From a virus, in IMG/VR virus record IMGVR_UViG_3300046660_000372, positions 1-49,873 of that record: a stretch of DNA of 49,873 bases. One strand, written 5' to 3'. The translations under genes and the position numbers were made by a program. Positions 5,363-49,873 of this stretch are shown here, piece by piece. A model generated the notes under the pieces. The model saw nothing but the letters and a program-made list of their open reading frames with translations. It did not search any database and had not been told where the DNA came from. The stretch's first letter is position 1. Every line of letters begins with the position of its first letter.

Positions 5363-5758
5363 ATGAAAAAACTATCAATCTGTCTCGCAATCGTTGGGTT
5401 TCTTTTTTCTTGCAATCAAAAGTCTTCAGTCGAATCGGGTAAAAGAGATTCGGCCTATACGTCGATCGTTTACGCTTTCAATGCAGATCAAAACGACTAC
5501 CGTACTACCACTGCATTAAGGGTGTGCTATGATACCGTAATTGTGGCCAGGGACAGCACAGCAACGCACATTGATTTTGTACATAAGGCTGTACGGGATA
5601 CCCAATACAGGGTACCGATTCTTTTCAGTAAGCCTGACAGTTTGAACGGGAAGCCTTTACTTGATTCTGTGGGTAAGCCAAAAGTAAAAACAATGCTTTT
5701 ATGGCCTCTACTTACAAAGGGCAGCCTTTTAATCGATTATAATAAACGCTGGCATTAA
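5363..5758 (+). CDS. Small lipoprotein of unknown function
   Basis: 131 residues. It begins MKKLSICLAIVGFLFSCNQK, a type II signal peptide with lipobox LFSC and Cys17 as the lipidation site. The mature part is polar, with no membrane segment, and contains short beta-like strands (TALRVCYDTVIVARDST, YRVPILF). It starts 9 bases after the hydrolase stop and belongs to the same rightward operon. I do not recognise the family. Its place between an exported hydrolase and the lysis genes suggests an envelope role during late infection, or a lysogenic-conversion role. That is inference only. Confidence 0.7.
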   Translation: MKKLSICLAIVGFLFSCNQKSSVESGKRDSAYTSIVYAFNADQNDYRTTTALRVCYDTVIVARDSTATHIDFVHKAVRDTQYRVPILFSKPDSLNGKPLLDSVGKPKVKTMLLWPLLTKGSLLIDYNKRWH

Positions 5759-6091: not shown

Positions 6092-6487
6092 ATGAATGAA
6101 TTCAAGCAAATCGTTTTAGGTGGCGCAACCGCTGGCGCATGGCTGGCAACATTGCTTTACGCGTACCTCACGGCATTCGGGATGATCCTTTATTCGACTA
6201 CGAAGCGGGACCCCAAAAGCGAAAACACGCCTGTCTGTTTTCATTGGAGTTTTCTTTTAACCGATAAGGCGCTGCGGATATACAGCAACTTGCTGTTTAT
6301 CATTATCCTAGTCCGGGTAACACAATTTTTTGTGCCTGTGCAATATATCGTTTACAGCGGTTTCCTGATAGGATTGCTCAGCGATGGCCTGGGGCAGCTG
6401 TTGGAGTTTCTGCGGGATATGGTAGACAACAATGTACGCGGAAGGATCCGAAACAAATTTATGAACGACAACCCCGAAAAAAAATGA
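6092..6487 (+). CDS. Holin candidate (multi-pass small membrane protein)
   Basis: 131 residues with about three hydrophobic segments: residues 8-35 (ATAGAWLATLLYAYLTAFGM), 62-80 (SNLLFIIILVRVTQFFV) and 84-100 (YIVYSGFLIGLLSDGLG). A charged C-terminal tail ends NDNPEKK. Size, topology and position upstream of a signal-less endolysin (8077) fit a holin, which would open the inner membrane and release the endolysin. The last four bases overlap the next start (ATGA at 6484), indicating translational coupling. The sequence does not clearly match a named holin family, so the call rests on topology and context. Confidence 0.55.
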   Translation: MNEFKQIVLGGATAGAWLATLLYAYLTAFGMILYSTTKRDPKSENTPVCFHWSFLLTDKALRIYSNLLFIIILVRVTQFFVPVQYIVYSGFLIGLLSDGLGQLLEFLRDMVDNNVRGRIRNKFMNDNPEKK

Positions 6488-7167
6488 CCCCTATTAAATT
6501 AACCAAAATTGTGGCTTTAATACTATTCGTCGCAACCCTGGCGGTCAGCTGTACGAGTGTCCACAAGATGCAGGATAAAATAACGGCGGCCCTAAGTAAA
6601 AAGGCTTCCTATTCCCTGGACAGCGCCGGCAGGAATTCTACCGATAGTTCTTCCCTGAAAAAACAGAAATCGGGTACAAGCTCGACAGAAGACAGCAATT
6701 ACACACGTGTTACCGTTGTTGAAGACTTCGACTGGGGAGGGCATGGCACAAAGGACACCCCAACTCTGAAGACCCGCAGATACTCCGGCCCAGCCTGGCA
6801 GCAAGGAAAAGTATCTGGCAATGCTGTTCCCGTGGCCGGGATAGAAGACCATTCGCATATACCATATCTGTACAAGCGAACGACGGTATACGAGAAGGGC
6901 AATAAAACGGCTACAGCTGTCAACTGGGGCGCAAGTTCGGACAGTACAACCCTTTCAAAAAAAGGGGCGGCGAAGGTAAAGGTATCCGGCGATTCGTCTA
7001 TAAATGTACAAACCGCCCATACGACAAAAGAGAGCTGGCATTTTGGTGTGTCTACTACCCTGCTTTTATCGCTTTTATTTCTGCTGATCCTTTTTATCGC
7101 CTACTCAATCTGGAAACGCTCACCCTGGGTTGCCGGCATTTCAAAGTTTTTTAACCAAACAAAATAA
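6484..7167 (+). CDS. Candidate unimolecular spanin (lipoprotein with C-terminal membrane anchor)
   Basis: 227 residues. The N-terminal lipobox is LAVSC with Cys23 as the lipid site. A long Ser/Thr/Lys-rich periplasmic part covers residues 24-185, and one strong membrane segment lies near the C-terminus (about residues 190-210, TTLLLSLLFLLILFIAYSIW), followed by a short basic tail. A lipid-anchored N-terminus plus a C-terminal inner-membrane segment is the architecture of u-spanins such as phage T1 gp11, which join the inner and outer membranes and fuse them in the last step of lysis. It overlaps the holin candidate by four bases and sits in the same operon as the endolysin. The call comes from topology, not sequence similarity, and the protein is longer than T1 gp11. 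Confidence 0.5.
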   Translation: MTPIKLTKIVALILFVATLAVSCTSVHKMQDKITAALSKKASYSLDSAGRNSTDSSSLKKQKSGTSSTEDSNYTRVTVVEDFDWGGHGTKDTPTLKTRRYSGPAWQQGKVSGNAVPVAGIEDHSHIPYLYKRTTVYEKGNKTATAVNWGASSDSTTLSKKGAAKVKVSGDSSINVQTAHTTKESWHFGVSTTLLLSLLFLLILFIAYSIWKRSPWVAGISKFFNQTK

Positions 7168-7172
7168 ACAGA

Positions 7173-7679
7173 ATGAAAGTATTTATTTTATTCGCTGCCA
7201 TCGGCAGCATGTTCTTAGCCAGCTGCGCCGACCGCACACCTGACGACAGTACAGCGACGGCCTACGTGGATTCCACTGCGACTAAATGGGTCCCTTATAT
7301 GACAAACGATGGGACGATCGGCACCAAGCAGGTGTACGAAACCAAAGTAACGATCTCCCCGACGTGGGGACAGGCGTTTTATTACGCCTACAAATCAGGG
7401 TACACATTACAGCTTGTCGCTGGTATCGTTTTCATCCTTTTAGGTTTCGCCGCTTTGATCTTCATTCCCAACCTGGGGATTAAAATTGGATTTGGTGTGG
7501 TTTTAATAATGGCCGGTGCGGCTATAATCTATGTTAAGCCCGGGCGTATAAAGTCGGAGAATGACAAGGCTGTACTGCAAAGCACTTATGAAGACGCAAT
7601 TTTAAAAACGGGCAGCAGTATTGGTATTTGGGATAGCCTTTATAATTCAAACCGGCTGATTGCGGCCCCGTCCAAATGA
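7173..7679 (+). CDS. Lipoprotein with two membrane segments
   Basis: 168 residues. The signal peptide MKVFILFAAIGSMFLASC has lipobox LASC and Cys18. The middle is polar, followed by two adjacent hydrophobic segments (about residues 83-101 LVAGIVFILLGFAALIFIP and 104-124 GIKIGFGVVLIMAGAAIIYV), then a polar tail. It starts 5 bases after the spanin candidate and its stop overlaps the next gene by four bases. Having both a lipobox and integral segments is unusual. It could be a second spanin-like or holin-like lysis protein. The family is not recognised. Confidence 0.6.
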   Translation: MKVFILFAAIGSMFLASCADRTPDDSTATAYVDSTATKWVPYMTNDGTIGTKQVYETKVTISPTWGQAFYYAYKSGYTLQLVAGIVFILLGFAALIFIPNLGIKIGFGVVLIMAGAAIIYVKPGRIKSENDKAVLQSTYEDAILKTGSSIGIWDSLYNSNRLIAAPSK

Positions 7680-8076: not shown

Positions 8077-8640
8077 ATGACAGAAGTTATACAGCTGCGT
8101 TGGATTAAAACCAACCTGGGCCCAATCATTAACAGTTCACTGGCGGCCTGGAAGCAAAAAACGGCGATACAGGTACCATATACTGAAGACTGGCTGGCCG
8201 GGATCGCAATGCGGGAAGTCGGCCAGCTGGTGGGCAGGGCTATCGAAAAGAATTTGTCTTTCGGCACCGCCTGCGAAACAATGCGGGGGGATTATTCACA
8301 GCGCCCAGGCGATGCGATGAAAGTATACCACGGGTTTGGGTTTTGGCAGGTCGATGTAGGTAGCTACTCCGATTTTGTGCGTACCGGCCAATGGAAGGAT
8401 CCTTCACTTTCCTGCAGGCAAGCCATTACCATCCTTTACGGGAAGCAAACTTATCTAAGCCATCATTGCCCGGCGGTTACGGGGGAGGCCCTTCACAGGG
8501 CTCTAACAGCCGCCTATAATAACGGAGAGGGCAACCAGGTGAAGGTTATAATTGCCGGAAAGGATGTGGACGCTAAAACCACCGATCACAATTACAGCGC
8601 GGAAGTCTGGCGCTTTCGGGACATGTACAGAAATCTATAA
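8077..8640 (+). CDS. Endolysin, lysozyme/lytic-transglycosylase-like
   Basis: 187 residues from the ATG at 8077, chosen because it follows the upstream stop by two bases; an in-frame upstream start would overlap most of that gene's end. The sequence has the lysozyme-superfamily landmarks: a likely catalytic Glu in IAMREVGQL (near residue 49), the HGFGFWQVDVGSY motif (near residue 87) resembling the GFGLMQVD block of goose-type lysozymes, and AAYNNGEGN (near residue 150) resembling AYNAG. It should cut peptidoglycan glycan strands. There is no signal peptide, so it needs one of the upstream membrane proteins for release. It is the last gene before a strong terminator. Confidence 0.75.
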   Translation: MTEVIQLRWIKTNLGPIINSSLAAWKQKTAIQVPYTEDWLAGIAMREVGQLVGRAIEKNLSFGTACETMRGDYSQRPGDAMKVYHGFGFWQVDVGSYSDFVRTGQWKDPSLSCRQAITILYGKQTYLSHHCPAVTGEALHRALTAAYNNGEGNQVKVIIAGKDVDAKTTDHNYSAEVWRFRDMYRNL

Positions 8641-36167: not shown

Positions 36168-37589
36168 ATGCCAGCACAATACTTACATGGGGTGGAGGTA
36201 ATTACCCTTTCGCAAGGTAACCGTAATGTTGAGGTAGTAAAAAGCGCGGTTATAGGATTAATCGGTATAGCGCCCCAAGGCGCAAAAAATACCCCCATTC
36301 TTGTACAGTCCGATGTAGATGCCGCCCAGTTCGGTAGTCCGTTAACTGGCTTTGATATTCCCCAGGCATTAAATGCAATTTTCGAGCAAGGCGCCGGGAC
36401 AGTTATTGTTGTGAATGTATTTGATATTGCAACACATACCACCCAGGTAACCGACGAAGTGCAAGCCGTCGCAAACGGCACGTTTAAACTGGCTTTCCAA
36501 CCCGTGGGAGCGGTCATAGTAAAGAATAGCGATGGCAGTGCGGCCACGATCGTAGCTGGCGTAGACTACAGCATAGACGCATACGGGAACGGCGTCGCAT
36601 TGTCGGCCAACATGGCCGATGGTACATCTTTCAAATGGAGCTACAAAAAACTGAATGCCCCGAGTGTAACAAACTCGCATATTATCGGTTCGATAGACGG
36701 GGGAACTGGTGCTTATACGGGCACCCGTTGTTGGGAATTGGCTAAAAACCTATTTGGTTTCAATCCTAAAATACTTATTGCGCCAGGCCGTAGCAGTATT
36801 CCCGCCATTGCTGCCCAGCTGGCTGTAGAGGCTCCGAAATTCAGGGCTGTCTATTTGCTTGACGCGCCATACGGGACTACTCAGGCGCAGGCCATTGCCG
36901 GCAGGGGACCAGCTGGGACCATCAATTTTAATACTGGCGATAAGCGTGCGTACCTTCTCTATCCTTATTTGAAGGCGTTTGATGCGGCTACCGATGCAAA
37001 CCAGGATTTCCCCTACAGCGCATATATGGCCGGGGTAATAGCCGCTACAGATTTGGCGTTCGGCTACTGGTTTTCACCTTCCAATAAAGCTATTTTGGGT
37101 ATTGTTGGGACAGAGCGGACGATCTCCGCAGGTGTTAATGATGCAACCAGCGATGCAAACACGTTAAATGGCGCCGGTATCACTACTGTATTTAACACCT
37201 TCGGTACAGGTATCAGAACCTGGGGTAACAGAAATGCGTCTTTCCCTACCAATACTAATATAGACAGCTTCCTGCCCACCGTACGTACAGCTGACGTGAT
37301 ACACGAAAGCATGGAAGCGGCATTCCTTGAAAATATCGATCAGCCGATAACCAAGGCCCTGGTAGACTATATCCGCGAAAGTGGTAATAAGTTTATAAGG
37401 ACGTTAGTTGCTCGCGGCGCAATCGTTCCAGGAAGCAACGTTTCCTTCCCCAAAAACTTAAATCAAGATACCGACCTGGCTGCCGGCCACCTGACGTATT
37501 TGCTGGACATGTGTCCCCCGCCCCCTGCAGAAAGGATCACAATTCAATCTTATATCGATATCGGATTGCTCCAAACTATCGGCGCATAG
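36168..37589 (+). CDS. Contractile tail sheath protein
   Basis: 473 residues. MPAQYLHGVEVITLSQGNR, then SAVIGLIGIAPQGAKNTPIL and GAGTVIVVNVFD are the N-terminal marks of P2-like sheaths. The C-terminal third has FVRT-like FIRTLVARGAIVPGSNVSFP and ends AERITIQSYIDI. The sheath shortens to drive the tube through the cell envelope, so this phage is a myovirus. Confidence 0.93.
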   Translation: MPAQYLHGVEVITLSQGNRNVEVVKSAVIGLIGIAPQGAKNTPILVQSDVDAAQFGSPLTGFDIPQALNAIFEQGAGTVIVVNVFDIATHTTQVTDEVQAVANGTFKLAFQPVGAVIVKNSDGSAATIVAGVDYSIDAYGNGVALSANMADGTSFKWSYKKLNAPSVTNSHIIGSIDGGTGAYTGTRCWELAKNLFGFNPKILIAPGRSSIPAIAAQLAVEAPKFRAVYLLDAPYGTTQAQAIAGRGPAGTINFNTGDKRAYLLYPYLKAFDAATDANQDFPYSAYMAGVIAATDLAFGYWFSPSNKAILGIVGTERTISAGVNDATSDANTLNGAGITTVFNTFGTGIRTWGNRNASFPTNTNIDSFLPTVRTADVIHESMEAAFLENIDQPITKALVDYIRESGNKFIRTLVARGAIVPGSNVSFPKNLNQDTDLAAGHLTYLLDMCPPPPAERITIQSYIDIGLLQTIGA

Positions 37590-37634
37590 GGATAATCGTA
37601 CAAAATCAATTTTACATTTTAAATTATTCATACA

Positions 37635-38153
37635 ATGGGTATTAAAATTAACAGGCTTACTAACGCCAATATCTACATGGGCAATCAAAACCTGATAGGT
37701 CGAGCGGAAGAAATAGACCTGCCCGAACTAAAAGTAGTTATGACGGAACACAAGGCTTTAGGCCTTGTTGGTAAGCTGGAATACCCTAGCGGCATTGACA
37801 AGCTGGAAGCCAAAATCAAATGGAACAGCTTTTACCAGGATGTTTTCGGTTCGTTTGCGAACCCTTATCAGGCTGTAAAGCTTATGGTAAGGTCAAGTGT
37901 TGAGACTTACGAAGGCGGCGACCGTATAGCTCAGCTTCCAGCAGTCTGTTATATGACCTGCCAGCCCAAGGGTTTCCCTTTGGGAAAATTTAAGCAGCAT
38001 GACAACGTAGAACTGGAAAGTTCATTGGGATGCACTTACATTAAGCTGGAAATCGACGGCGTTTTGCAGGTAGAATTCGACGCCGAAGCCAATATCTTTA
38101 ATGTGCAAGGCGTCGACTTGCTGGCCACTTACCGCGCTAACCTGGGATTATAA
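37635..38153 (+). CDS. Tail tube protein (P2 FII-like)
   Basis: 172 residues, matching the P2 FII family. IKINRLTNANIYMGNQNLIG and EEIDLPELKVVMTEHKALGL, GKLEYPSGIDKLEAKIKWN are family blocks. It forms the inner tube of the contractile tail. It lies 45 bases after the sheath. Confidence 0.9.
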   Translation: MGIKINRLTNANIYMGNQNLIGRAEEIDLPELKVVMTEHKALGLVGKLEYPSGIDKLEAKIKWNSFYQDVFGSFANPYQAVKLMVRSSVETYEGGDRIAQLPAVCYMTCQPKGFPLGKFKQHDNVELESSLGCTYIKLEIDGVLQVEFDAEANIFNVQGVDLLATYRANLGL

Positions 38154-38187
38154 TTTCTATTCTTAAAATAACCAAAGCACTTTTTGT

Positions 38188-38541
38188 ATGAATGATCAGC
38201 AAAACGCAACAGATCCGCAATGGGTTGTAGCAAACGACAACGACGCTCTATTTGGCATCGAAACAATTGAATATCCTAACGGGGGGAAATGTAAGCGGGC
38301 TACCCTCAGCGATGGCCGGGTAGCTGTTGTCCGCAGGTTGAAGGGAAGTGATAAAAAATCGATAGACCGCATTACAAACGGCAATTCCGAAGATGTCCAG
38401 GACGCTATGGCTGTGGTGGCGACAAAGATAGGCGATCAGTCGATTGTGATTGAAGACCTGCGGGAAATGTGGTTTGATGATTCCACCCTTATCGACATTA
38501 TGAATGGTGGATTAAATTTTACACAGAAGACCACGAAATAA
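38188..38541 (+). CDS. Tail assembly chaperone, short form (P2 gpE-like)
   Basis: 117 residues, between tube and tape measure, the standard place for the chaperone. The body (SDKKSIDRITNGNSEDVQDA, then MAVVATKIGDQSIVIEDLRE and WFDDSTLIDIMNGGL) fits the TAC family. Near its end the frame crosses A-AAT-TTT (38514-38520), a slippery site that allows the long form described in the next entry. The short form folds around the tape measure protein during tail assembly. Confidence 0.75.
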   Translation: MNDQQNATDPQWVVANDNDALFGIETIEYPNGGKCKRATLSDGRVAVVRRLKGSDKKSIDRITNGNSEDVQDAMAVVATKIGDQSIVIEDLREMWFDDSTLIDIMNGGLNFTQKTTK

Positions 38542-38660
38542 CTTTTGTGGCCAATTTCTACGCGCAATCACCGCGGGAAGTTGAAGACTGGCCGACAAGC
38601 GAAATACGGCGCTGGTACATTGCGGCCGTAAATCAAAGGAACAAAGAAAACAAGGAATAG
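38188..38660 (+). CDS. Tail assembly chaperone, long form made by -1 frameshift
   Basis: The zero-frame ends at 38541, but the -1 frame is open from the slippery heptamer A-AAT-TTT (38514-38520) to a TAG at 38658-38660. Slipping gives 111 residues of the short form plus 46 more, starting YTEDHEITFVANFYAQSPRE and continuing VEDWPTSEIRRWY. The total is 157 residues. P2 E/E' and lambda G/GT use the same mechanism in the same place. The tape measure ATG follows the TAG by one base. The heptamer fits the X-XXY-YYZ rule; no downstream pseudoknot was checked. Confidence 0.75.
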
Positions 38661-38661
38661 C

Positions 38662-40686
38662 ATGGATAAGACGTTAAGAATAGCCGTCATACTTACGGCT
38701 TACGATAAAATGTCGCAGGCTATTGCCGAAGCTAGTACAAAAAGCCAGGCTAAATTAAAAGCCCTTCGCGCAGAATCAGCTAAATACATGGGGCAGGCAT
38801 TTGCCTATGGGGGCGCCAGTGCGATAGGGTTTAATTTCCTTCATAATACATCCGATGCTTTCGCAGAGCTTCAAGACGCGTCCCTGAAGATGAGATCTTC
38901 CATGATGAAAGATGGCGGATTATTGGATGAAGCTACTTTCCAAAAGCTGGACCAATTTACAAACACTATTAGCGCTCGGTTTACCGGGTCTGCAGCTGAT
39001 TATAAAAAAATGGTGACCGTCATGCAGGAAAACGGCCTGCAGGCGCAAGATATTTTAGGCGGCACCGGTGAAGCTGCGGCGAAGCTGGCGGTAGCATTTG
39101 AAGCGGCCCCGGATTCGATTGCTCAATTCGCAGCCCGTATGCGTCAGGATATGGGGATTGCCAATCAGGACATGGAAAAAATGACTGATTTAATTGCCAG
39201 GTTGCACAATGCAGGTGTAGGCAAGGACGGTGCAGAGGCAGTTAACGAAATGTCGGAAGCTTTCAGTAAAGCGGGGCTGGGCGCAGCAAACTTAGGAATG
39301 AAAGGAATAGAAGCAGCTAAAGGGCTGGGCGCAATGATGGGGATTTTTGTTAAGCGCGGCATATCCGGGGGAACAGTTGGTAATAACTTTCGCAGGATAT
39401 TTGACGGCTTACGAGACGCAGACAAAATAAAAAAGGCGAACCAATACGCTAAAGAATTCGGTATAACCCTTGACTTTTATAAAAACGGAAAATTTGGAAG
39501 TGTTGAAAATTTTGTGGCACAAATTGGGAAATTACAGGGATTAAGCACTACCGCAATATCAAAGGTTTTGAAACCCTTTTCCGGTAAGCAAGGCCTTTCT
39601 ACGGACTTCCTGGAATTCATGGCAAAAGAGGGTACAAGCGGGTTTAATGAGATGCAGCATAAACTGAGCAACCAGGCTACATTAGACCAAAAGGTACGCA
39701 ATATCCTGTCGGGGCAAAAAAAGCAAGCTGAAATAGCAAGAACATCCTGGACGAATGCAATGGCTGCTATCGGGCGATCTCTTTCGCCCGTTATTAATTG
39801 GTTCAATAGGATGAAAAACGCTGTTGCTAATTTCATTTCCGAGCACCCTCGGTTGGCAAAGTTTATTGCAATTTTCGTTTCCCTTACATCTGCCGCATTG
39901 GGCATGATGGCTATAGTTTCCGTGATCAAAGCGATAAGGGCCGTTATGCTCATGCTCAATATCGTAATGGCGGCAAACCCTTTTATTATAGTTGTAGCGG
40001 CTGTAATAGTTGTCGTATCGCTCATTTATACATATTGGGACAAGATAAGGGGGTTTTTCATTTGGCTATGGGCTAAAATAAAATCTATTTTCAGCGGGTT
40101 CTGGAACTGGGTAAAAGGGCTTATAATGAAGTATACGCCCGCGGGCTTAATATTTTCGCATTGGGATAAAATTAAAGCCTTCTTCCACAACCTTTGGGAG
40201 AAAGTGAAACACATATTCATGGCGCACGTGGCCTGGGTAATGGGCCTTGGCGCAAAGTTTTTCAACGCAGGTAAAAACATAGTCATGTCTATTTGGAACG
40301 GGATTAAAAATTTCGTTCACAAGCCAATACAGGCGATAAAAGACATGGTTACGAAGATTCGTAAATACTTGCCTTTCAGCCCCGCAAAGGAAGGCCCGCT
40401 AAGGGATATTCATAAAATTCGTCTTGTTGAAACCATCGCCGAAAGCATAAGGGTTAACCCAGTTATACAAGCTATGCAACGGGTCGGTAAAGCGATATTT
40501 GAAACTTCCCCGTCCCCTGGGCCGTTGGGGATTGCAGCTGGCGGGGGCAATGTTTATAACATCCATTTTTCCCCTGTGCTTAATGGCAATGGCGGCGATT
40601 TGATATCGCAGCTTAAGGCATGTATGCCTGACCTTATGAAGTTAATCCAAGATTCGACGGATAAACAAAGCCGGCGAAGATTTTAA
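38662..40686 (+). CDS. Tape measure protein
   Basis: 674 residues. The N-terminal half is helical (AYDKMSQAIAEASTKSQAKL). The TP901-type core lies at about 40-370, and hydrophobic segments at about 395-460 (LAKFIAIFVSLTSAALGMMA and NPFIIVVAAVIVVVSLIY). Then come W-rich repeats (YWDKIRGFFIWLWAKIKSIF, HWDKIKAFFHNLWEKVKHIF) and the LPFSPAKEGPLRDI segment, all typical of tape measures. Its length sets tail length, giving a tail of about 100 nm by the usual rule of roughly 1.5 angstrom per residue. Confidence 0.92.
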   Translation: MDKTLRIAVILTAYDKMSQAIAEASTKSQAKLKALRAESAKYMGQAFAYGGASAIGFNFLHNTSDAFAELQDASLKMRSSMMKDGGLLDEATFQKLDQFTNTISARFTGSAADYKKMVTVMQENGLQAQDILGGTGEAAAKLAVAFEAAPDSIAQFAARMRQDMGIANQDMEKMTDLIARLHNAGVGKDGAEAVNEMSEAFSKAGLGAANLGMKGIEAAKGLGAMMGIFVKRGISGGTVGNNFRRIFDGLRDADKIKKANQYAKEFGITLDFYKNGKFGSVENFVAQIGKLQGLSTTAISKVLKPFSGKQGLSTDFLEFMAKEGTSGFNEMQHKLSNQATLDQKVRNILSGQKKQAEIARTSWTNAMAAIGRSLSPVINWFNRMKNAVANFISEHPRLAKFIAIFVSLTSAALGMMAIVSVIKAIRAVMLMLNIVMAANPFIIVVAAVIVVVSLIYTYWDKIRGFFIWLWAKIKSIFSGFWNWVKGLIMKYTPAGLIFSHWDKIKAFFHNLWEKVKHIFMAHVAWVMGLGAKFFNAGKNIVMSIWNGIKNFVHKPIQAIKDMVTKIRKYLPFSPAKEGPLRDIHKIRLVETIAESIRVNPVIQAMQRVGKAIFETSPSPGPLGIAAGGGNVYNIHFSPVLNGNGGDLISQLKACMPDLMKLIQDSTDKQSRRRF

Positions 40687-40688
40687 AA

Positions 40689-41537
40689 ATGTTTGCACAA
40701 TTAGGTAATACAATATTTAAGGGGGTATTCGGTTGGGATGATTTTTCCACCCAGGATGCAACAACTTATGCCCAACATGATTTGATTGGGGCGAAGCCAC
40801 GTTTACAGGCAGTGGGCAATGACCTGGAAGAAATAAATTTCACAATGACGCTCCGCCAGGAGTATGTTAATGTAACTGGCGCCTTGCTCAGCCTAAAAGC
40901 TTCAAAGGATAACTATGAAGTACTACCCCTATTAATGGGCAGCGGGCAATACCTGGGGGACTATGTTATAACAAGTTTCACCAAAAAGATCACACAAACG
41001 CTTTCGGATGGGGGCATTATCGAAGCTGTCCTGGATGTTTCATTAAAGGAATTCGTAACGAGCGACCGAATCGTACAGTTGCAGCAACAAGCAAAGAAAC
41101 AGGCTTTTGCGGTTGGGGACAGATCCCCTGTAAACACGGTAAAGCCTCAACTTCCAACGATTGCAAAACTGGCCGCCATTGATGTGAGCAAAGCCCTTTC
41201 CAACTATTCGGTTTTAAACAATCGAATATCTGAATACCAGAACAACGTAAGCCAGCAGCATAGCCTTGCAAAATCTATGCAAAAAGACCTTGGGAATATA
41301 CAGGATAGCGTCAACGCTTTTGAACAAAAAGTTACCAGTATTCAAGCAAAAGTAGCAAACGCAACCGACATGATCGCTGCGGTCAAATCCGTTGTTCAGT
41401 CGGTTTCGGCTTTTAAATTCCCGATCACAAGTATTGAAGATTTGAAAGCGAATAATCTATTATTAGCCGGTTCGGTAAGCAACTTTAAAATAACTGGTAC
41501 AGGATTATTAAACTCAGTTATAACCCGTAGAATTTAA
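40689..41537 (+). CDS. Tail protein U-like (P2 gpU family)
   Basis: 282 residues, longer than P2 gpU (about 160). The first 130 residues match: MFAQLGNTIFKGVFGWDDFS, then DLEEINFTMTLRQEYVNV and GSGQYLGDYVITSF. The extra C-terminal part (about 150-260) is a long helix or coiled coil (NNVSQQHSLAKSMQKDLGNI). It overlaps gpX by one base. Confidence 0.8.
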   Translation: MFAQLGNTIFKGVFGWDDFSTQDATTYAQHDLIGAKPRLQAVGNDLEEINFTMTLRQEYVNVTGALLSLKASKDNYEVLPLLMGSGQYLGDYVITSFTKKITQTLSDGGIIEAVLDVSLKEFVTSDRIVQLQQQAKKQAFAVGDRSPVNTVKPQLPTIAKLAAIDVSKALSNYSVLNNRISEYQNNVSQQHSLAKSMQKDLGNIQDSVNAFEQKVTSIQAKVANATDMIAAVKSVVQSVSAFKFPITSIEDLKANNLLLAGSVSNFKITGTGLLNSVITRRI

Positions 41538-41758
41538 TGGCAGACACATTTCCTTATATAGTAAAAGACGGTATGCGATGGGACACGGTTTCTTACCTGG
41601 CGTATGGCCGGGCATCGCTTATTGATGACTTAATAACCGCCAATCCCGAGGTGCCTATAACTGAAAGGCTGCCCCCAGGCACAGTCTTGCAAATACCTGT
41701 AAAAGACACTGCGGCTGTACAAACAAATAGTGAACTATTACCCCCCTGGAAACAATGA
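41537..41758 (+). CDS. Tail protein X (P2 gpX-like, LysM-type)
   Basis: 73 residues: YIVKDGMRWDTVSYLAYGRA followed by ITANPEVPITERLPPGTVLQ and IPVKD, the P2 gpX pattern, a LysM-like fold that secures the tail hub. It shares bases with both neighbours, indicating coupled translation. Confidence 0.85.
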   Translation: MADTFPYIVKDGMRWDTVSYLAYGRASLIDDLITANPEVPITERLPPGTVLQIPVKDTAAVQTNSELLPPWKQ

Positions 41759-42849
41759 ACGCACCAGTTGCAACATACAAGGTAATATATAGCAGTAAGG
41801 ACATAACAAAGGACATTTCCGAACATCTGCTATCCCTGACTTATACTGACAAGGTAGAGGGTGAGCCCGACGAATTGACTATATCCCTGGAAGACGTAGA
41901 CGGGAACTGGCAAAATGCCTGGTATCCTAAAACTGGGGATATTATTTCCGCAGAAATAGAAATGCAAGGGGTAGTACTGCAGTGTGGGAGTTTCACCGTG
42001 GACGAAAAGGAACTTTCAATTAGTAGATCTGGCGATGTTTTTAGTATCAGTGCTGTATCCGCCTACGTCACGAAAAAAATGCGGACTAAAAGAGGATCCG
42101 CACATGAAAATAAAACCCTTGGCGAAATAGCCAGGACCGTCGCTGCAAGACATTCCCTGACCGTACAGGGAACGATCGCCAATTTCAGAATAGGAAGGGT
42201 CACGCAGCACAGGGAATCAGATTTAGCCTTCCTGCAGCGTATAGCGAATGAGTACGGTTATACATTTTCCGTTCGGGGGAATAAAATGATTTTTACTTCT
42301 TATGATTCCATCGAAGGTAGGGGCGTGGTAATGTCGATCGACAAATCGGACCTTATATCAGGGGCAATAAAAGACAAGGCAGCGACCACATATAAAAGCG
42401 CCAGGGTAAGATACCATGACCCGTCTGAAAATGAGACAATAGAAGGCGAAAGTACTGATGATACCACGGATACTTCCGCCGACACTTTAGAAATACAAAG
42501 CAAAGCTGAGAATACACAACAGGCCGAAACGAAGGCCGCCGCCGCCCTTCATAAAGCAAATACTATTCAACAGAAAGGGAGTATTACCATACCTGGCAGC
42601 CCACTAATTGTAAGTGGCGTGAATTATGAACAAACTGGAATCGGCCAGCTAAGCGGCATTTACCACGTTATAGAAAGCGTACATAGCCTAAGTCGAAGTA
42701 CTGGGTATGAAACGAAAGCGGAGGTCAAGCGCGTCGGACATGTACCCGCGGCAAAATTCATTGCAAAGCAAGCCAAAAAGATAACACCGATTCGGATTGT
42801 CACCATCAACAATGCCGATAACATCCCGTTCACTTTTGTAAATCCTTAG
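41755..42849 (+). CDS. Baseplate hub protein (P2 gpD-like)
   Basis: 364 residues. YTDKVEGEPDELTISLEDVD near residue 30 and GDIISAEIEMQG are typical of gpD (T4 gp27-like hub), with ESDLAFLQRIANEYGYTFSV near 150 as the strongest family block. The hub carries the spike at the tail tip. It overlaps gpX by four bases and is followed after one base by the spike gene. Confidence 0.88.
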   Translation: MNAPVATYKVIYSSKDITKDISEHLLSLTYTDKVEGEPDELTISLEDVDGNWQNAWYPKTGDIISAEIEMQGVVLQCGSFTVDEKELSISRSGDVFSISAVSAYVTKKMRTKRGSAHENKTLGEIARTVAARHSLTVQGTIANFRIGRVTQHRESDLAFLQRIANEYGYTFSVRGNKMIFTSYDSIEGRGVVMSIDKSDLISGAIKDKAATTYKSARVRYHDPSENETIEGESTDDTTDTSADTLEIQSKAENTQQAETKAAAALHKANTIQQKGSITIPGSPLIVSGVNYEQTGIGQLSGIYHVIESVHSLSRSTGYETKAEVKRVGHVPAAKFIAKQAKKITPIRIVTINNADNIPFTFVNP

Positions 42850-42850
42850 T

Positions 42851-43498
42851 ATGCTAAAGTTCGGAAAAATATCTGAAGTCGACGCCTCCGCCGGCCGGGC
42901 ACGCGTGGTTTTCCAGGAAGACGACAATACGGTAAGCCACTGGCTGCCAATGATGCAACAAAAAACATCGCCCGATAAATTTATTATCCCCTTCGATACA
43001 AACGAACACGTTGTTTGCCTTATGGATGAACATGCAGAAACCGGTGTTATCCTGGGGGCCATCTACGACAATAAGAATGCGCCAGACGAAGGCGCCGAAG
43101 GTAAGGCGCGGCTTTCGTTCGTGTCTGGCCTGTGTATAGAGTACGACCGGAATAGTAAAGCTTTGTCACTCACTGGAACGGGAGATATAACCATTAACAT
43201 TACCGGCAATGTAAACGTAAAATCTGTTAAAGCCACCGTCGAAGCGACTACCGAAGTAGAGGTAAAAGCCCCGGTCATTAAGCTTACTTCCCCCAATGTG
43301 CAGGTAAGCGGAAACATGACAGTAGTTGGGGATCTGGCAATTGCCAATTTAACAACGTCTGGCGGAGTAAGCGGCGGCGGTTCGGCTCATATCGGTAGCA
43401 TACATGCTACAAGCGTTACAGCCGGTACTGTTTCATTAGAATCTCATACGCATATTGGGGTAAAATCAGGTCCCGATGTTTCCGGTCCACCGCAATAA
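42851..43498 (+). CDS. Baseplate spike protein (gpV-like)
   Basis: 215 residues. The N-terminal OB fold covers residues 1-90 (KISEVDASAGRARVVFQEDD, then GVILGAIYDNKNAPD). Residues about 105-190 form repeated strands like a triple beta-helix (GDITINITGNVNVKSVKATV). The C-terminus ends HTHIGVKSGPDVSGPPQ, whose His-x-His matches the metal-binding tips of P2 gpV and related spikes. It pierces the outer membrane. Confidence 0.9.
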   Translation: MLKFGKISEVDASAGRARVVFQEDDNTVSHWLPMMQQKTSPDKFIIPFDTNEHVVCLMDEHAETGVILGAIYDNKNAPDEGAEGKARLSFVSGLCIEYDRNSKALSLTGTGDITINITGNVNVKSVKATVEATTEVEVKAPVIKLTSPNVQVSGNMTVVGDLAIANLTTSGGVSGGGSAHIGSIHATSVTAGTVSLESHTHIGVKSGPDVSGPPQ

Positions 43499-43501
43499 AA
43501 A

Positions 43502-44464
43502 ATGATCACCTTACTTCCAAATATTACATCAAAGAACTGGCAGTTAAGCACTGCAGGGCCTGGTATAATATCCGAAGGCTTACAAGATATACGGCAATGT
43601 CTGGATACCATATTACGTACGACACGCGGCAGCTTGCCACTTCTCCCTGAATTCGGGAGCGACATTTACAAGTTCATTGACACACCGCGTACAACCGCCA
43701 TCCCGAATATAATAAAAGCTATTATTGAAGGGGTTGTATGGGAGCCCCGGGTAAAGCTTGTCAGTATAAAGCATACCGAAGACGTAAGCAACGTAAAATT
43801 TTTTATCACTTACCAGCTTGTAGATCAGGAATTGATCGATACACTGACATTATTTTTAAATGGTGGATTTCTTACGTCTGATCAGGTAAACGCAGGATTT
43901 TTTATACTGGAAGGGTATTTTCCTCCAAATGCTTCGGGACGTAATTATACCATATCGTTGGTAGGCGACGGGGTATCGGTCTTACCTGCAATTCCGATAA
44001 AAGGTTTTTCGACAATTCCGGAAATGTATAGCTGGGTAGTTGCGAATTGGAGCCAGTTTGGAAAGTGGGTATTACTGCCTACCAAAATAGTGTTGTATAT
44101 GCCTGGCGACATGTTTTCTACAGCCAGCTTAATTATTGGCATTTCAGGTACATTTTCTTTTACTGCATTGTTCCCCGATTTGGACCCCGGCCAACATTAC
44201 GATATGCTGTTTATGCCCGATGGTGTGTCGCCTTCCGACTTATTCCCTGACAATATAAATTCTATTGAAAGCGCTCTTGTTTTCGTTCGCAATTACTGGG
44301 GTATGTATGGTACGTGGAACGTTGAAGTAGTAACAGTTTCAGCAAGCGGGGACCTTGGAATAGACTTCGGTTCTGACTTCAGCACTGGCGGCGGGTCGCA
44401 GTATTCTTTGACTTTAATAACCGATAGCGTCAATGCGGCGCTATTACAAATAAACGCAGTCTAA
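43502..44464 (+). CDS. Baseplate wedge protein with gp25-like N-terminus and large C-terminal extension
   Basis: 320 residues. The first 120 match P2 gpW/T4 gp25: GLQDIRQCLDTILRTTRGSL, then PLLPEFGSDIYKFIDTPRTT and TLTLFLNGG. Normal members are about 110-140 residues. The remaining 190 residues are beta-rich with repeated aromatic strands (PEMYSWVVANWSQFGKWVLL and ALVFVRNYWGMYGTWNVEVV share a W-x-x-x-GxW-type layout), suggesting two related subdomains. This extension is unusual and may face outward from the baseplate. Confidence 0.7.
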   Translation: MITLLPNITSKNWQLSTAGPGIISEGLQDIRQCLDTILRTTRGSLPLLPEFGSDIYKFIDTPRTTAIPNIIKAIIEGVVWEPRVKLVSIKHTEDVSNVKFFITYQLVDQELIDTLTLFLNGGFLTSDQVNAGFFILEGYFPPNASGRNYTISLVGDGVSVLPAIPIKGFSTIPEMYSWVVANWSQFGKWVLLPTKIVLYMPGDMFSTASLIIGISGTFSFTALFPDLDPGQHYDMLFMPDGVSPSDLFPDNINSIESALVFVRNYWGMYGTWNVEVVTVSASGDLGIDFGSDFSTGGGSQYSLTLITDSVNAALLQINAV

Positions 44465-45589
44465 TTGGCAAAAGTTGCATTCATAGAAAATGACCCGGAT
44501 CAGATTGTGGCTGATTGCATTGCTCAATATGAGCAACTAGCAAACAGAAAGCTGCAGCCTGGTCAAGCTGAGCGGCTTCTAATCCAGGTGTTTGCTTACC
44601 GGGAAACCCTGGTAAGGTCTGGCATAAATGTGACTGGCAACCAAAGTTTAGTAAATAACGCAACGGGTAGTGCACTAGAGGAACTGGGCGTTATAGTAGG
44701 CGTCGTTCGTCAGCCGGCGGCCCCTGCCCTTACTCTTTTTCGTTTTCAACTGGTGGCAGGGCATGCAGCACTGACAATCCCTGACGGGTTACGGGTTCAG
44801 TCAGTTGATGGCCAGGCTATTTTCATTACGACGGAAATAAAAAGCGTCAGCCCCACTGATACTTATGTTGACATAAAAGCCCAATGTACAAAGGATGGCG
44901 TTGTAGGCAACGGATACGCTGTTGGCGATGTAGCAATATTGTTAGATCCTCAGCCCTACGTTTCCAGTGTTTCAAATTTGGACATAACAAATAGCGGCAA
45001 TGATGATGAAACAGACGAACAACTAAGGACGAGAATTAAGATCGCCCCCTCAAAATTTTCCGTAGCTGGGCCTAAAGGGGCTTACCAGTATTTCGCACTG
45101 AGCGCCCACCCTTCTATAATTGATGTGGCCGTAACAATAGGCCATGACGTTGGCACTGGGGCCGTCATTCCTGGCCAGGTGGATATATTCCCGCTATTGG
45201 TTAATGCCACGCCTCCAACCCTTGAAATAATCGACGCTATTCTGGCCATTTGCAACGACGACAAGATCAGGCCGCTAAATGACACAGTGGTGGTGAAAGC
45301 CCCGGTAGAAACGACCTACGCCCTCACTGTTGACCTTGTTTTGCTTAATAACGCAGTTGAAGCGGAGGCCCTTGCAACAGTGCAGGCGAATCTGCAGGGG
45401 TATGTAGATGCAAGAAAAAAAGGGCTGGGCCTGGATGTTGTAAGATCCCAAATAATTGGCATTTCAATGATACCAGGGGTTTATAACGCAATTCCAACCA
45501 GCCCGGGCGCGGACATAGTGATCCCGCCAAACGGATACAGTACATGTACAGGAATTACTGTTAATGTAATTGGTACAACGGATGCTTAA
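44465..45589 (+). CDS. Baseplate J-like protein
   Basis: 374 residues from a TTG at 44465, directly after the previous stop. Family blocks are QAERLLIQVFAYRETLVRSG, ALEELGVIVGVVRQ, and NGDDDETDEQ-type SGNDDETDEQLRTRIKIAPS near residue 180, followed by PKGAYQYFALSAHPSI. This is the wedge protein that links hub and fibres. It overlaps the next gene by eight bases. Confidence 0.9.
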   Translation: MAKVAFIENDPDQIVADCIAQYEQLANRKLQPGQAERLLIQVFAYRETLVRSGINVTGNQSLVNNATGSALEELGVIVGVVRQPAAPALTLFRFQLVAGHAALTIPDGLRVQSVDGQAIFITTEIKSVSPTDTYVDIKAQCTKDGVVGNGYAVGDVAILLDPQPYVSSVSNLDITNSGNDDETDEQLRTRIKIAPSKFSVAGPKGAYQYFALSAHPSIIDVAVTIGHDVGTGAVIPGQVDIFPLLVNATPPTLEIIDAILAICNDDKIRPLNDTVVVKAPVETTYALTVDLVLLNNAVEAEALATVQANLQGYVDARKKGLGLDVVRSQIIGISMIPGVYNAIPTSPGADIVIPPNGYSTCTGITVNVIGTTDA

Positions 45590-46250
45590 CAAATCGGACA
45601 CGATACTACCCGATAGCCTTTTTATATATCCGCATTTATTGGCTTTTGACCTAATGGCAAAACAAAGGTACGACAGCCTGCAACTGGATAGGGCTCTGGT
45701 ATACCTGATAGACAATGTCACAGCTGACGCATTGCCTTATCTGGCGGAACAATTCGACGTGCTGGGCTACAAGGGTATGAAGTTAGCTGCAAATGTTGCA
45801 CAACAGCGGGAAGTAATAAAAAGGGCTATTGAATTACACCGATTTAAGGGTACGCTTTGGGCGGTTCGTGAAGCTCTTAAAAATATTGGCTACCCTAACG
45901 CAATCATTACCGAAAAGGTAAATATACTGTCGGATCCGGATCACGGATGGGCCACATTTAGGGTGCAGATTGACGGGGGTAGTAACGCCATAAGTGCGGC
46001 GCAGATCAGCGAGTTGGTCCAGATGATCGAAGAATACAAAAACGCACGCAGCCAATTACTTGACATTAGCTACACCCTTGTTTTTGATGATGGGGTAACC
46101 ATAGGCGATAGCAGCTTCGAAAATCCCAGCGTAGACGATGGAGATACGTTAAATGTTGGTAGCAATTTTATATACAACGGCGCTGTGCCTTATGACGGCA
46201 GTAGGAATTTCAGCCCTGACAACGATGTATTAACAGTAACAATTATCTAA
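45582..46250 (+). CDS. Tail protein I (P2 gpI-like)
   Basis: 222 residues from ATG 45582, chosen because P2 gpI begins near its MLNKSDTILPDSL and an ATG 12 bases upstream adds only four residues. LPYLAEQFDVLGYKGMKLAA and AIELHRFKGTLWAVREALKN are the family blocks. It forms the baseplate periphery and holds the fibres. Confidence 0.85.
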   Translation: MLNKSDTILPDSLFIYPHLLAFDLMAKQRYDSLQLDRALVYLIDNVTADALPYLAEQFDVLGYKGMKLAANVAQQREVIKRAIELHRFKGTLWAVREALKNIGYPNAIITEKVNILSDPDHGWATFRVQIDGGSNAISAAQISELVQMIEEYKNARSQLLDISYTLVFDDGVTIGDSSFENPSVDDGDTLNVGSNFIYNGAVPYDGSRNFSPDNDVLTVTII

Positions 46251-46252
46251 GC

Positions 46253-46699
46253 ATGAATTTTTTAAACGGCGATGGATTAAATGTACGGGGTGATTTCTCA
46301 ATGCAGGTTTTCGAAGGTGAAAATTTGATAGAGAAATACGAGCAAAAAAATCTTGTAGTATCCCTTGGCAAAACAAATGTGACTAAAGTACTGGCAGGGG
46401 ACGCGGCCGGTAAGAAGGTTAGTTTAATATCAGTCGGGACAAGCGGCATTTTGCCAGACGTAGCCGACGCCGTTATGACTACCCCGTTTACTAAGGCATT
46501 GGATGGTTATACATTCCCTGATGCTGCCAGTGTACTTTTTTCATGGAGCCTGGACACTACTGAGGCCAACGGGATGACTATACTGGAATTCGGGTTACTG
46601 AATGACGACGGTATTTTATTCGCAAGGAAAACGCGTAGCGCCATTATAAAAACAAACGCAATACGCATTGTAGGGACTTGGAAAATAACTGTTAGCTAA
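46253..46699 (+). CDS. Tail-associated hypothetical protein
   Basis: 148 residues, between gpI and the collar fibre. Strand-rich: KNLVVSLGKTNVTKVLAGDA, then KVSLISVGTSG and ILEFGLLNDDGILFARKTRS. Proteins of this look often lie between the baseplate and fibres in Bacteroidota phages and are probably fibre adaptors. Function inferred from position. Confidence 0.6.
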   Translation: MNFLNGDGLNVRGDFSMQVFEGENLIEKYEQKNLVVSLGKTNVTKVLAGDAAGKKVSLISVGTSGILPDVADAVMTTPFTKALDGYTFPDAASVLFSWSLDTTEANGMTILEFGLLNDDGILFARKTRSAIIKTNAIRIVGTWKITVS

Positions 46700-47661
46700 T
46701 GTATACATACAATGAAACTGATAGGTTCCCTATTGCAAGGAACGTAGATACAACTGACGTTGTTTTGGGCGGCTCCACCGGTGCCGCTAACCTGCCGCTG
46801 CAGGATCTTGCAGATCGGACTTTCTGGCTTAAAAAGCGGATGGGTAGTTTTTTCGGGGTAACCGCAGTGGCCGCAGATTTTACTGTAGATATTTCGTTTA
46901 TAAACACGCTTGTTTATATAACAGCAGCCGGCCCCATAAATGGCATCTTTTCTACTGATGCTACCCTTGGTAACTTTCCTGTAGGTGCTAGAATTTTCTT
47001 CCATGTAGTTCAAGCTTCACAGTATAGCCCTGTTACGATAAATCGCCCAGGGGGAGCGCCGATATATCTGTACGATGGCGAACAAATAGAACTTTCCCGC
47101 CATAGCTCGTTTTGGGTTATAACTCACCAAAAAGGGAATTTCGATTTTGTTGGCGAAGATGCACTGGTTAGAACTCAGCCAGCGAATTCCATTATTGCCC
47201 TGGGAGATATTTACAGTAGAGCCGACCTTATAAGACTATGGACAATAGTACAGCCGGTCGCAATTCTCGAAAGTACATGGTTATCTGACTTGGGTGGAAA
47301 GCCCAGGTACCGGGCGTTTTTCTCATCTGGGAATAACGGGGGAAACTTTCGCGTTCCTGACCTTCGCGGCCTTTCCGAAAAAGCGCTGGATTATGGCCGG
47401 GGGCTTTCCTTCGGGCGCCTTGATCTCGCTGTAGGCGGTTATGAGGAAGACGCTTTAAAAGATCACCATCATATTACAACATTAGATCCAACTGCAAATA
47501 GTGATACTGGATCCGGGAAAGTTGCTGTGGGTGGCGACGGCCCTGAAGGTATACCACCAAAATACAATACTGGCGGCCCGCTAGATAATGCAGGGAACCA
47601 AATTGGCGCAACAGAAACTAAAGTAAAAACCTGGGGTAAACTACCTGTAATCTACTATTAA
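46699..47661 (+). CDS. Tail fibre or receptor-binding protein with collar-like domain
   Basis: 320 residues, sharing one base with the previous gene. FSSGNNGGNFRVPDLRGLSE near residue 215 is the phage tail collar motif (GxFxVPDLRG). A His-rich KDHHHITTLDP and an ETKVKTWGKLPVIYY end follow, as in collar-type fibres. There is no signal peptide, unlike the next gene. It is the most likely virion receptor-binding protein. Confidence 0.8.
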   Translation: MYTYNETDRFPIARNVDTTDVVLGGSTGAANLPLQDLADRTFWLKKRMGSFFGVTAVAADFTVDISFINTLVYITAAGPINGIFSTDATLGNFPVGARIFFHVVQASQYSPVTINRPGGAPIYLYDGEQIELSRHSSFWVITHQKGNFDFVGEDALVRTQPANSIIALGDIYSRADLIRLWTIVQPVAILESTWLSDLGGKPRYRAFFSSGNNGGNFRVPDLRGLSEKALDYGRGLSFGRLDLAVGGYEEDALKDHHHITTLDPTANSDTGSGKVAVGGDGPEGIPPKYNTGGPLDNAGNQIGATETKVKTWGKLPVIYY

Positions 47662-47662
47662 A

Positions 47663-49873
47663 ATGAAAAGAGTACTTTTTTTAATCTCAATTACAATGCT
47701 GATTTGTGCCGGCGTGGCTGGTCAAACGCCTTCCTTGGCAAAGCAGCAGGTAACCGCGCGAATTAACGACAGTATCCGCACCAATGGTGTCCGTGCAATT
47801 ACCGCCGCAACGCTCAATCAAATAATACAGGCAGTCAATAATGTAAACGTTGACAGCAACCAGGTGGCGCAGATAATAAACGGACAAAAGGGAGCGGCCA
47901 ACGGTCTGGCCACCCTGCTAAATAATGGTCGTCTTCCAATTGTTCAGCTACCGACAATTATCGACAGTATATGGGCCATAAACGATACAACCATACGTGT
48001 ACACAATATTTACGGCTACAGCTACAATGTGCCCGTAAAGGGCCGTGCTGGGGCAGGCTTGACGGCTCCGAATTTAACATATAACTATATAAACGGGTTC
48101 GGTCAATACGCCTACCTGGATGCGGATAGCATTTTTGAGGGGTCGGCCCATAGATTCTATTATGACAGTTATGCAAGGGCCGCATTTACCCTGACAACAG
48201 TTGGTACCAGTGGGGCTGCAACTTATAATAGCAGTACAGGGGTCTGGAATATCCCAAACTATTCAGCCGGCGGCGGGATGGGCAATCCCATGACCAACAT
48301 GGGAGATCTGATTTATGGCGGCGCCGGTGGTAGTCCTTTGCGCCTACCAGTCGGGGGGGCTCACCAGGTGTTGCATGGCGGCTCGATTCCTGGGTACAGC
48401 GCTATTGACCTGACAAATGAAGTCGTAGGGCAGCTGGCTGATGCAAATATTGCGTCCGCGCCAACATGGAATGCTAAGGAAAATGCATTGACATTTGGTA
48501 ACGGCCTTACCCGATCTTCAAACGCTGTATCATTTGGCGGCACATTATCATCAAGCGTATCCGTTGACGGTGGAGAGGGGACATATAGTGTTGGATTTTC
48601 AAACGTGAACAACTTCAATATGACTGCTTTTGGGCAGTTGTATATGTTCGGCGGTCCTATAATATTGCAGTCTAATAGTTCGCAAATAACTATCCGGCCG
48701 AATAGTATTCGGGTTGAGGGTCAGGATTCAGTTGTAATAGGGACCTTAAACGGCCCGTTTAAATATTATTTGTTGAATGTGCCCAATCAAACAGGCACAA
48801 CGAACTTAACGACACTGGTATATGACACCACGACAAACAGAATATACCGTCAAAATATAAATGTTGGGACAGTTACGAGTGTCGGGGGCACGTCCAACCG
48901 GGTAACATCAACTGGCGGCACCACGCCTGTGATTGATATAGCGTCGACGTACGTGGGTCAAGGGAGTATAACGACTGTGGGCACACTGACCGGCGGTGCG
49001 ACCGGCAGCGGCTTTACAATCGCCCTGAGCACTTCCACTGTAACGGGTACGCTGTCCGATGCCAGGCTAAGCGCGAATATTCCTTTTCTGAATGGGAATA
49101 ACACTTTCACTGGGACGGCCACGGCTTTCAGCGGGACCTTCAATCTGGCGGCGCTGGCTGGCACGGGTACCAGGATGGTTACCGTCAGCAGCACCGGGGA
49201 TTTGGGGGCGCAAGCCATCCCGTCCGGCGGCGGGGCTACCAATTTGGGACAAGCTCAAAACGCAACAACATATAGTATCAGTTCAAGTACAGGGGCATCG
49301 GCAACCTTACAGACGGCCACAACATTACTGGCCGGGCTGTACGATACTGCCAGTAAGCGCAGGGTTGACAGCATAGGCGACGGGACTTACTGGACGGTAC
49401 ATACTTTTAAGATAAAGACCGGAAAGGGGATTTATGCTTATGGGCTAAATAGCGATAGCCTTGCCATTGCGGTAGATAGCCTTCCAATAGTGCAGGATTT
49501 GCGGCTAAGTGGTAGTAATATCCAGGCATATATTGGCGGGGCCTGGGCGAACAAAGTCGATTTGTCCGGTTACCTTACTGGCACAGTCGGCACTACATCT
49601 GGCGGTACGGGGTTGACTTCTTATACGACAGGGGATATTCCTTATGCAATCGCAACAAATACACTTGGGAAACTGGCCCCTGGTACCAATGGGTATATAC
49701 TTACAATGGTTTCGGGCTTACCGGCCTGGGCGGCCGCTGCTTCGGCTGGGACAGTTACGAGTGTCGGGGGCACGTCCAACCGGGTAACATCAACTGGCGG
49801 CACCACGCCTGTGATTGATATAGCGTCGACGTACGTGGGTCAAGGGAGTATAACGACTGTGGGCACACTGACC
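47663..49873 (+). CDS. Fibre-like protein with signal peptide, N-terminal part (partial; continues at 1-1999)
   Basis: ATG at 47663, two bases after the collar fibre; open to the window end. It begins MKRVLFLISITMLICAGVAGQ, a Sec signal peptide with likely cleavage after VAG or VAGQ. Then come about 700 residues of fibre-type repeats, for example SFGNGLTRSS-like LTFGNGLTRSSNAVSFGG, the 117-residue repeat unit (48865-49215), and GTSGGTGLTSYTTGDIPYAI followed by TNTLGKLAPGTNGYILTMVS, a motif well known in Bacteroidota phage fibres. The frame passes the circular join (49746 is a multiple of three) and ends at 1999, giving 1360 residues. Signal peptides on fibre proteins are unexpected. Confidence 0.8.
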   Translation, partial: MKRVLFLISITMLICAGVAGQTPSLAKQQVTARINDSIRTNGVRAITAATLNQIIQAVNNVNVDSNQVAQIINGQKGAANGLATLLNNGRLPIVQLPTIIDSIWAINDTTIRVHNIYGYSYNVPVKGRAGAGLTAPNLTYNYINGFGQYAYLDADSIFEGSAHRFYYDSYARAAFTLTTVGTSGAATYNSSTGVWNIPNYSAGGGMGNPMTNMGDLIYGGAGGSPLRLPVGGAHQVLHGGSIPGYSAIDLTNEVVGQLADANIASAPTWNAKENALTFGNGLTRSSNAVSFGGTLSSSVSVDGGEGTYSVGFSNVNNFNMTAFGQLYMFGGPIILQSNSSQITIRPNSIRVEGQDSVVIGTLNGPFKYYLLNVPNQTGTTNLTTLVYDTTTNRIYRQNINVGTVTSVGGTSNRVTSTGGTTPVIDIASTYVGQGSITTVGTLTGGATGSGFTIALSTSTVTGTLSDARLSANIPFLNGNNTFTGTATAFSGTFNLAALAGTGTRMVTVSSTGDLGAQAIPSGGGATNLGQAQNATTYSISSSTGASATLQTATTLLAGLYDTASKRRVDSIGDGTYWTVHTFKIKTGKGIYAYGLNSDSLAIAVDSLPIVQDLRLSGSNIQAYIGGAWANKVDLSGYLTGTVGTTSGGTGLTSYTTGDIPYAIATNTLGKLAPGTNGYILTMVSGLPAWAAAASAGTVTSVGGTSNRVTSTGGTTPVIDIASTYVGQGSITTVGTLT
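48865..49215. repeat. Long direct repeat, copy A (identical to 1-351)
   Basis: It is identical to 1-351 over 351 bases, then nearly identical to about 49235. It lies about 880 bases before the second copy on the circular map and in the same frame. Recombination between copies would delete or duplicate about 880 bases and keep the reading frame, since the spacing (882 bases) is a multiple of three. Confidence 0.95.
49747..49873. repeat. 127-base terminal overlap with the window start
   Basis: These 127 bases equal bases 1-127. An overlap of exactly 127 equals a common assembly k-mer size and starts at the edge of the 351-base repeat, so it is an assembly join and not a packaged terminal repeat. 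Removing it leaves a circle of 49,746 bp. Confidence 0.9.

Follow-up and report, generated by a model that had tools for sequence, protein, structure and literature searches.

The fibre-like protein encoded directly after the collar gene of this phage is probably an adhesin of the virion that reaches it by way of the periplasm: it would be exported, cleaved, likely modified in the periplasm, and attached to virions at lysis. Judged by its N-terminus, the fibre is in all likelihood exported and cleaved and, by analogy with isolated Cellulophaga phages, it quite probably belongs to the virion; the timing, the attachment, the glycosylation and the enzyme action are what we infer around these points. 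Folding and assembly of phage tail fibres are commonly placed in the cytoplasm.

The fibre gene and its signal peptide

The window, by which we mean the whole stretch of 49,873 nucleotides that was analyzed (positions 1 to 49,873 of IMG/VR record IMGVR_UViG_3300046660_000372), has ends that overlap by exactly 127 bp, the assembly k-mer. The features are as follows.

36168..46250, + strand: contractile P2-like tail module with sheath (36168), tape measure (38662), baseplate proteins (42851 and 43502; the baseplate set includes W, J and I), J (44465) and I (45570), followed by 46253 and collar 46699 (PHROGs, tblastn)
46699..47661, + strand: collar-type tail fibre protein, signal-less, directly upstream of the predicted exported fibre (PHROGs tail fiber matches)
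47663..49873, + strand: fibre gene, first part, running on over the circular junction into 1-1999 (ORFs, 127-bp end overlap)
47663..47722, + strand: predicted Sec/SPI signal peptide of the fibre, MKRVLFLISITMLICAGVAG, cut before Gln21 (SP caller, Q-rule pattern)
47741..47836, + strand: N-terminal module of the fibre, residues 27-58, common to signal-less fibres at related loci (HMM)
48865..49215, + strand: 351-bp repeat inside the fibre gene, copy of window 1-351
2..1999, + strand: C-terminal part of the fibre gene past the junction (ORF open at its 5´ end)
2009..5353, + strand: 1114-aa protein, predicted SPI-exported, possibly a carbohydrate-active enzyme (SP, Q-rule, PKD, homologues)
5363..5758, + strand: small lipoprotein, 131 aa (lipobox, motif count)
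5786-6079 and 6092-6487, + strand: two membrane proteins, probable holin or lysis-associated (one predicted TM segment each)
6484..7167, + strand: u-spanin-like lysis protein, a lipoprotein with a C-terminal TM (lipobox, TM near residue 184)
7173..7679, + strand: lipoprotein with two TM segments, lysis region
8077..8640, + strand: probable endolysin (position and sequence; similar by eye to protein 7163 of L098; no family match in Pfam or NCBIfam)

By its place after J, I and the collar gene in a contractile tail operon (PHROGs, synteny), the protein would be the fibre of a P2-like myophage, and its start codon lies 1 bp past the collar gene stop in the late operon. As assembled, the ORF comprises 47663-49746 plus 1-1999 and encodes 1360 amino acids. 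It contains an exact 351-bp repeat, 48865-49215 being identical to 1-351, and the contig starts exactly at this repeat; since the window ends inside it, both the repeat number and the 1360-aa length are provisional. The circular junction and the repeat number rest on the k-mer overlap, and the fibre N-terminus is unaffected.

The protein begins with MKRVLFLISITMLICAGVAG, the predicted cut falling before QTPSLAKQQ. The signal has an n-h-c layout with small residues at -3 and -1 and Gln at +1 (VAG/Q), and Gln after the cleavage site, the Q-rule, marks SPI substrates in Bacteroidetes (PMC5837995). Signals were called with a rule-based SP caller, which made 0 calls among the 205 I, 46253-like and collar proteins of the collected loci, found no SP in collar 46699 or its equivalents at related loci, and is likely to have erred twice in other parts of the window, at 30687 (called as lipoprotein) and 34960 (called as SP). 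An alternative early Met, M12, would remove the signal, and the next Met is residue 206; we take M1 as the start because M12 leaves no signal and the module at residues 27-58 begins ahead of Met206. The sole Cys, C15, lies within the signal, there is no lipobox Cys, and the caller assigns SPI, not lipoprotein, type. Disulfide formation as a reason for export was ruled out, the mature fibre having no Cys. Residues 68-113 match short fibre-like proteins of other phages.

A preliminary description of this DNA had proposed a signal peptide at the start of the fibre gene, a signal-less collar fibre upstream, and lipoproteins at 5363, 6484 and 7173. All three points were borne out, the signal being of the Sec/SPI type with Q-rule cleavage and the lipoproteins having the lipoboxes FLFSC, LAVSC and FLASC, respectively.

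Related loci and the anchor module

Direct searches gave no useful close DNA or protein relatives of the fibre, or of the protein encoded downstream at 2009, in viral contigs or isolated phages, and the conserved baseplate protein J was therefore used to collect loci from viral contigs, species genomes and whole-genome searches around Chitinophaga. The comparison set comprises 29 P2-like Bacteroidota phage and prophage loci, window included, with the gene order J, I, 46253-like, collar. At 15 of the 29 loci, an SPI signal is present on the gene that immediately follows the collar (the window plus L002, L003, L008, L009, L014 from Chitinophaga sp. sic0106, L048, L049, L053, L055, L098, L125, L127, L132 and L133); the L009 fibre, which begins with MKKILFLLILLKGICALS ahead of the Gln, was missed by the caller and counted by eye. 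The gene is signal-less at 13 loci, and L128 has no fibre gene at that place. Every one of the 15 signal-bearing fibres obeys the Q-rule, with [AGS]/Q at a cut after residue 18-20; the chance background of this pattern is 50 of 597 non-SP genes.

In the J phylogeny, the signal trait requires four changes, at least three of them forced by well-supported branches, and thus the signal has been gained or lost repeatedly in front of the fibre. The window falls in a supported clade of five, every member of which is signal-bearing. The preliminary description had suggested a search elsewhere for the order of signal-bearing fibre and hydrolase; what recurs in other Bacteroidota phages is a signal-bearing fibre followed by a signal-bearing second protein. 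Two variant designs were also seen: the signal-bearing fibre at L049 (7104-9242) has a SASA carbohydrate esterase domain, and a Pinibacter prophage (L013, 13171-15113) has a split arrangement, with a short signal-less module gene and then a signal-bearing protein.

The signal stands in front of what is predicted to be a fibre anchor. An HMM made only from 13 signal-less fibre N-termini of the same locus matches residues 27-58 of the window fibre (E 6.4e-4), just past the cleavage site, and seven signal-bearing relatives with E values between 9e-10 and 1e-5; among the controls, the best E was 0.41 for 633 proteins and 0.018 for 300 shuffled sequences. The other signal-bearing fibres gave a weak match or none. 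With the match located after the cleavage site, the mature fibre would begin like a signal-less fibre of the same locus.

Virion records and glycosylation motifs

No isolate of the window's kind and no close relative was found in the phage collection. Cellulophaga phages phi10:1 (NC_021802), phi19:1 (NC_021799) and phi39:1 (NC_021804) have signal-bearing fibre-like and pectate lyase genes, mostly with Q-rule cleavage, in a row after the tail genes; these are analogues by position and signal, with no sequence similarity to the window fibre found, and P2-like myophage class is claimed for the window side only. Their products are recorded in virions, according to GenBank notes that read 'annotation based on experimental MS/MS proteomics analysis'. 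The proteins so recorded are gp091, gp092, gp093 (pectate lyase) and gp094 (tail fiber) of phi10:1, gp25 and gp26 (pectate lyase) of phi39:1, and gp101, gp102 (pectate lyase) and gp103 (tail fiber) of phi19:1, all with Q-rule SPI signals, together with phi19:1 gp104, which has a signal without the Gln. Across six phages, the SP caller found signals on 10 of 73 MS-recorded virion proteins, all 10 within fibre/lyase gene runs, in records that are silent on N-terminal cleavage and on co-purification of cell debris.

In phi10:1, phi19:1, phi13:2 and Ingeline, which has four successive signal-bearing Q-rule genes, the signal and about 20 residues are kept while the C-terminal domains differ, and such mosaicism is what would be expected if the unit anchors a receptor-binding protein. 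Shuffled exported anchors of this kind lie at L154 46438, L161 4901, L164 35867 and L192 6001. No signal-bearing fibre was seen in the genes or stretch examined of phi18:1, phi46:1, phi14:2 (crAss-like), Flavobacterium 11b and B40-8, or in the tail region of Flavobacterium phage FCL-2, and the feature is thus not universal. Remote from its tail genes, FCL-2 encodes a 147-aa signal-bearing, Q-rule, fibre-like orphan (L191 45363-45806).

Bacteroidota O-glycosylate D(S/T)(A/I/L/V/M/T) sites on noncytoplasmic proteins only (PMC12871550; PMC8550257). Expected motif counts were derived from composition, with a mirror motif as control. The five exported proteins of the window have 37 sites versus 12.5 expected (mirror, 13 versus 12.9), and the other proteins analyzed have 33 versus 30.8; among individual proteins, the fibre has 10 versus 5.5, 2009 has 17 versus 4.7, and 5363 has 5 versus 0.7. 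Across the relatives, the signal-bearing fibres have 112 sites versus 35.8 expected, every one of 14 exceeding its expectation (46 for the mirror motif), other SP genes have 101 versus 33.7, and signal-less fibre-region genes have 28 versus 23.6. On a Chitinophagaceae chromosome the ratio is 1.11x for soluble proteins, and higher for those with an SP (1.52x) and for lipoproteins (2.14x).

Against this pattern, I, 46253-like and collar proteins are also high (124 versus 74.2 expected), in a sample of 84 proteins that are not independent, being homologues of three families with conserved sites in common; the excess is putatively attributed to sites conserved within homologous I proteins, such as DTVDAS. 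In Cellulophaga, signal-bearing proteins have far fewer motifs than expected (19 versus 44.9; mirror, 40; L154, L156, L161, L164 and L192), other virion proteins are close to expectation (100 versus 108.6), and glycosylation is thus not general. Enrichment here and depletion in Cellulophaga, though opposite in direction, would both fit contact with glycosylation machinery. On these counts we lean slightly towards the fibre being O-glycosylated in the lineage of the window.

Protein 2009, alternative readings and the assembly route

The 1114-aa protein encoded at 2009-5353 begins with MKKILLGVSLLVLSLCAKS ahead of QTY, in an SPI-type signal whose AKS/Q cut obeys the Q-rule. It had been described as a hydrolase with a signal peptide; the signal was confirmed, and for the hydrolase assignment Pfam and NCBIfam gave no support, searches there finding no catalytic domain and only a C-terminal PKD domain. 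A PDB profile search with the 2009 family likewise gave only C-terminal PKD or Ig-like matches, and an AlphaFold model (16 sequences) had low confidence, with a mean pLDDT of 46, and was kept out of the fold search. The family has conserved glutamate motifs, GNE (E658) and TEQG (E800), which we take to resemble the catalytic glutamates of clan GH-A, and a role as a glycan-acting enzyme, with hydrolase activity, is plausible. A full-length homologue is found in Pinibacter prophage L013 (E 2e-43), and tandem signal-bearing homologues are found in Chitinophagaceae chromosomes, apparently outside prophages (L185 10697-17889; L187 8309-15415). Given these secreted chromosomal homologues, 2009 was probably captured from a host.

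These homologues give some weight to a division of roles, in which the fibre would be part of the virion and 2009 would be a captured host gene secreted for the benefit of the lysogen or for the exit of progeny from a glycan matrix. The exported proteins near the fibre vary among the relatives, including a GDSL lipase (L127) and a beta-helix protein (L048), which also speaks for it, and this reading is compatible with the fibre half of the periplasmic route. Against it, the signal-bearing pectate lyases that adjoin the fibres of Cellulophaga phages are MS/MS-recorded virion proteins, and we regard a division of roles as possible but not favored.

It is unlikely that fibre and 2009 both act outside the virion, at the surface of infected cells or lysogens or as secreted products, in exclusion, adhesion, decoy or glycan trimming, as the preliminary description had offered for lysogens. 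In favor of this, the signals are genuine, host chromosomes encode secreted homologues of 2009, an integrase gene is present in the window, and in a study of Porphyromonas phages, Q-rule genes that lacked an assignment were interpreted as altering the outer membrane of the host (PMC10367356). However, neither the fibre nor 2009 has a lipobox or matches the T9SS C-terminal sorting domain (Por_Secre_tail) at E up to 0.1, and both would thus be expected to remain periplasmic until lysis. Moreover, the fibre gene sits in the late operon, 1 bp past the collar gene, its anchor module is common to signal-less fibres, and the Cellulophaga analogues have virion records. Surface display on the lysogen is weakened by these observations, and the other option then given, export of the fibre and its joining to virions after lysis, gains support from the 15 of 15 Q-rule sites, the common module and the Cellulophaga MS/MS records.

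The hydrophobic N-terminus could instead be a retained structural plug that fixes the fibre in the tail, as fibres usually have an N-terminal anchor and the Cellulophaga signal plus about 20 residues is shuffled as a unit among different C-terminal domains, but three observations make this very improbable: all 15 signal-bearing fibres have the signal-peptide layout and obey the Q-rule, the homologous anchor sits past the cleavage site and works without a signal in relatives, and, among fibres, only the signal-bearing ones are enriched in the motif.

The lipoproteins had been grouped with the fibre and 2009 as one set of exported proteins. With a lipobox and a C-terminal TM near the lysis genes, 6484 has u-spanin topology and would be ordinary lysis machinery, although family searches gave no spanin match; a lysis-region lipoprotein with a C-terminal TM is likewise present at L125, L127, L128, L133, L013, L098 and L050. 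A five-protein export system was therefore rejected for 6484, and is weakened for 5363 and 7173, which lie in or beside the lysis genes.

In the periplasmic route that we favor for the fibre, the protein would be translated from the late operon with its Sec signal and exported across the inner membrane, where signal peptidase I would cut before Gln21, probably leaving a pyroglutamate cap. The fibre would fold in the periplasm, and many of its Asp-Ser/Thr sites would probably be O-glycosylated by the general system of the host. Cleavage would leave as its N-terminus the anchor module, which in signal-less relatives is used straight from the cytoplasm. The downstream holin, endolysin and spanin would then lyse the cell, such that periplasmic fibres could meet particles assembled in the cytoplasm and bind to the collar or baseplate. 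Protein 2009 would probably be exported likewise, as a glycan-acting partner.

Parts of this scheme have counterparts in known systems. The P2 gpH and gpG fibre genes also directly follow V-W-J-I; in contrast, the P2 fibre lacks a signal, and a chaperone takes part in its cytoplasmic assembly. Filamentous phage pIII and pVIII are virion proteins with cleaved Sec signals, as would be the window fibre, but they are membrane-anchored and extruded, and do not belong to a tailed phage released by lysis. The Cellulophaga phages share position and signal, and differ in that the motif is depleted, not enriched. For flavophages Ingeline and Nekkels, a one-sentence mention in the part of the report available describes lyase proteins 'also carrying signaling peptides', and there the lyases are discussed as tail enzymes and the signal is not related to virion assembly (PMC8776804). 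Five Q-rule proteins with SPI signals in Nixviridae of Porphyromonas gingivalis, of unknown function, were taken as host-modifying and not read as fibres (PMC10367356). A survey of DGRs reported that phage DGR proteins have no detectable signal peptides (PMC6199706). The preliminary description knew of no system of this shape; that holds for exported tail fibres as a class and for an exported-fibre route, for which a literature search reaching few subscription papers found no description, but not for signal peptides on such phage proteins, which have been mentioned before.

Whether tailed phages of Bacteroidota have repeatedly evolved two-compartment assembly, in which a cytoplasmic particle and exported, trimmed, and in some lineages O-glycosylated, adhesins or glycan enzymes are joined only at lysis, is in our view evenly balanced. 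If so, final assembly would take place at or after lysis, since this class of fibre must first cross the inner membrane, and the fibres would meet the periplasmic signal peptidase, glutaminyl cyclase and O-glycosylation. Virion fibres would be coated in host sugar, and adsorption could depend on the sugars of the previous host. Signal-bearing late genes of Bacteroidota phages that are readable as host-modifying may be fibres, and such fibres may be unmodified or misfolded if expressed in the cytoplasm of E. coli.
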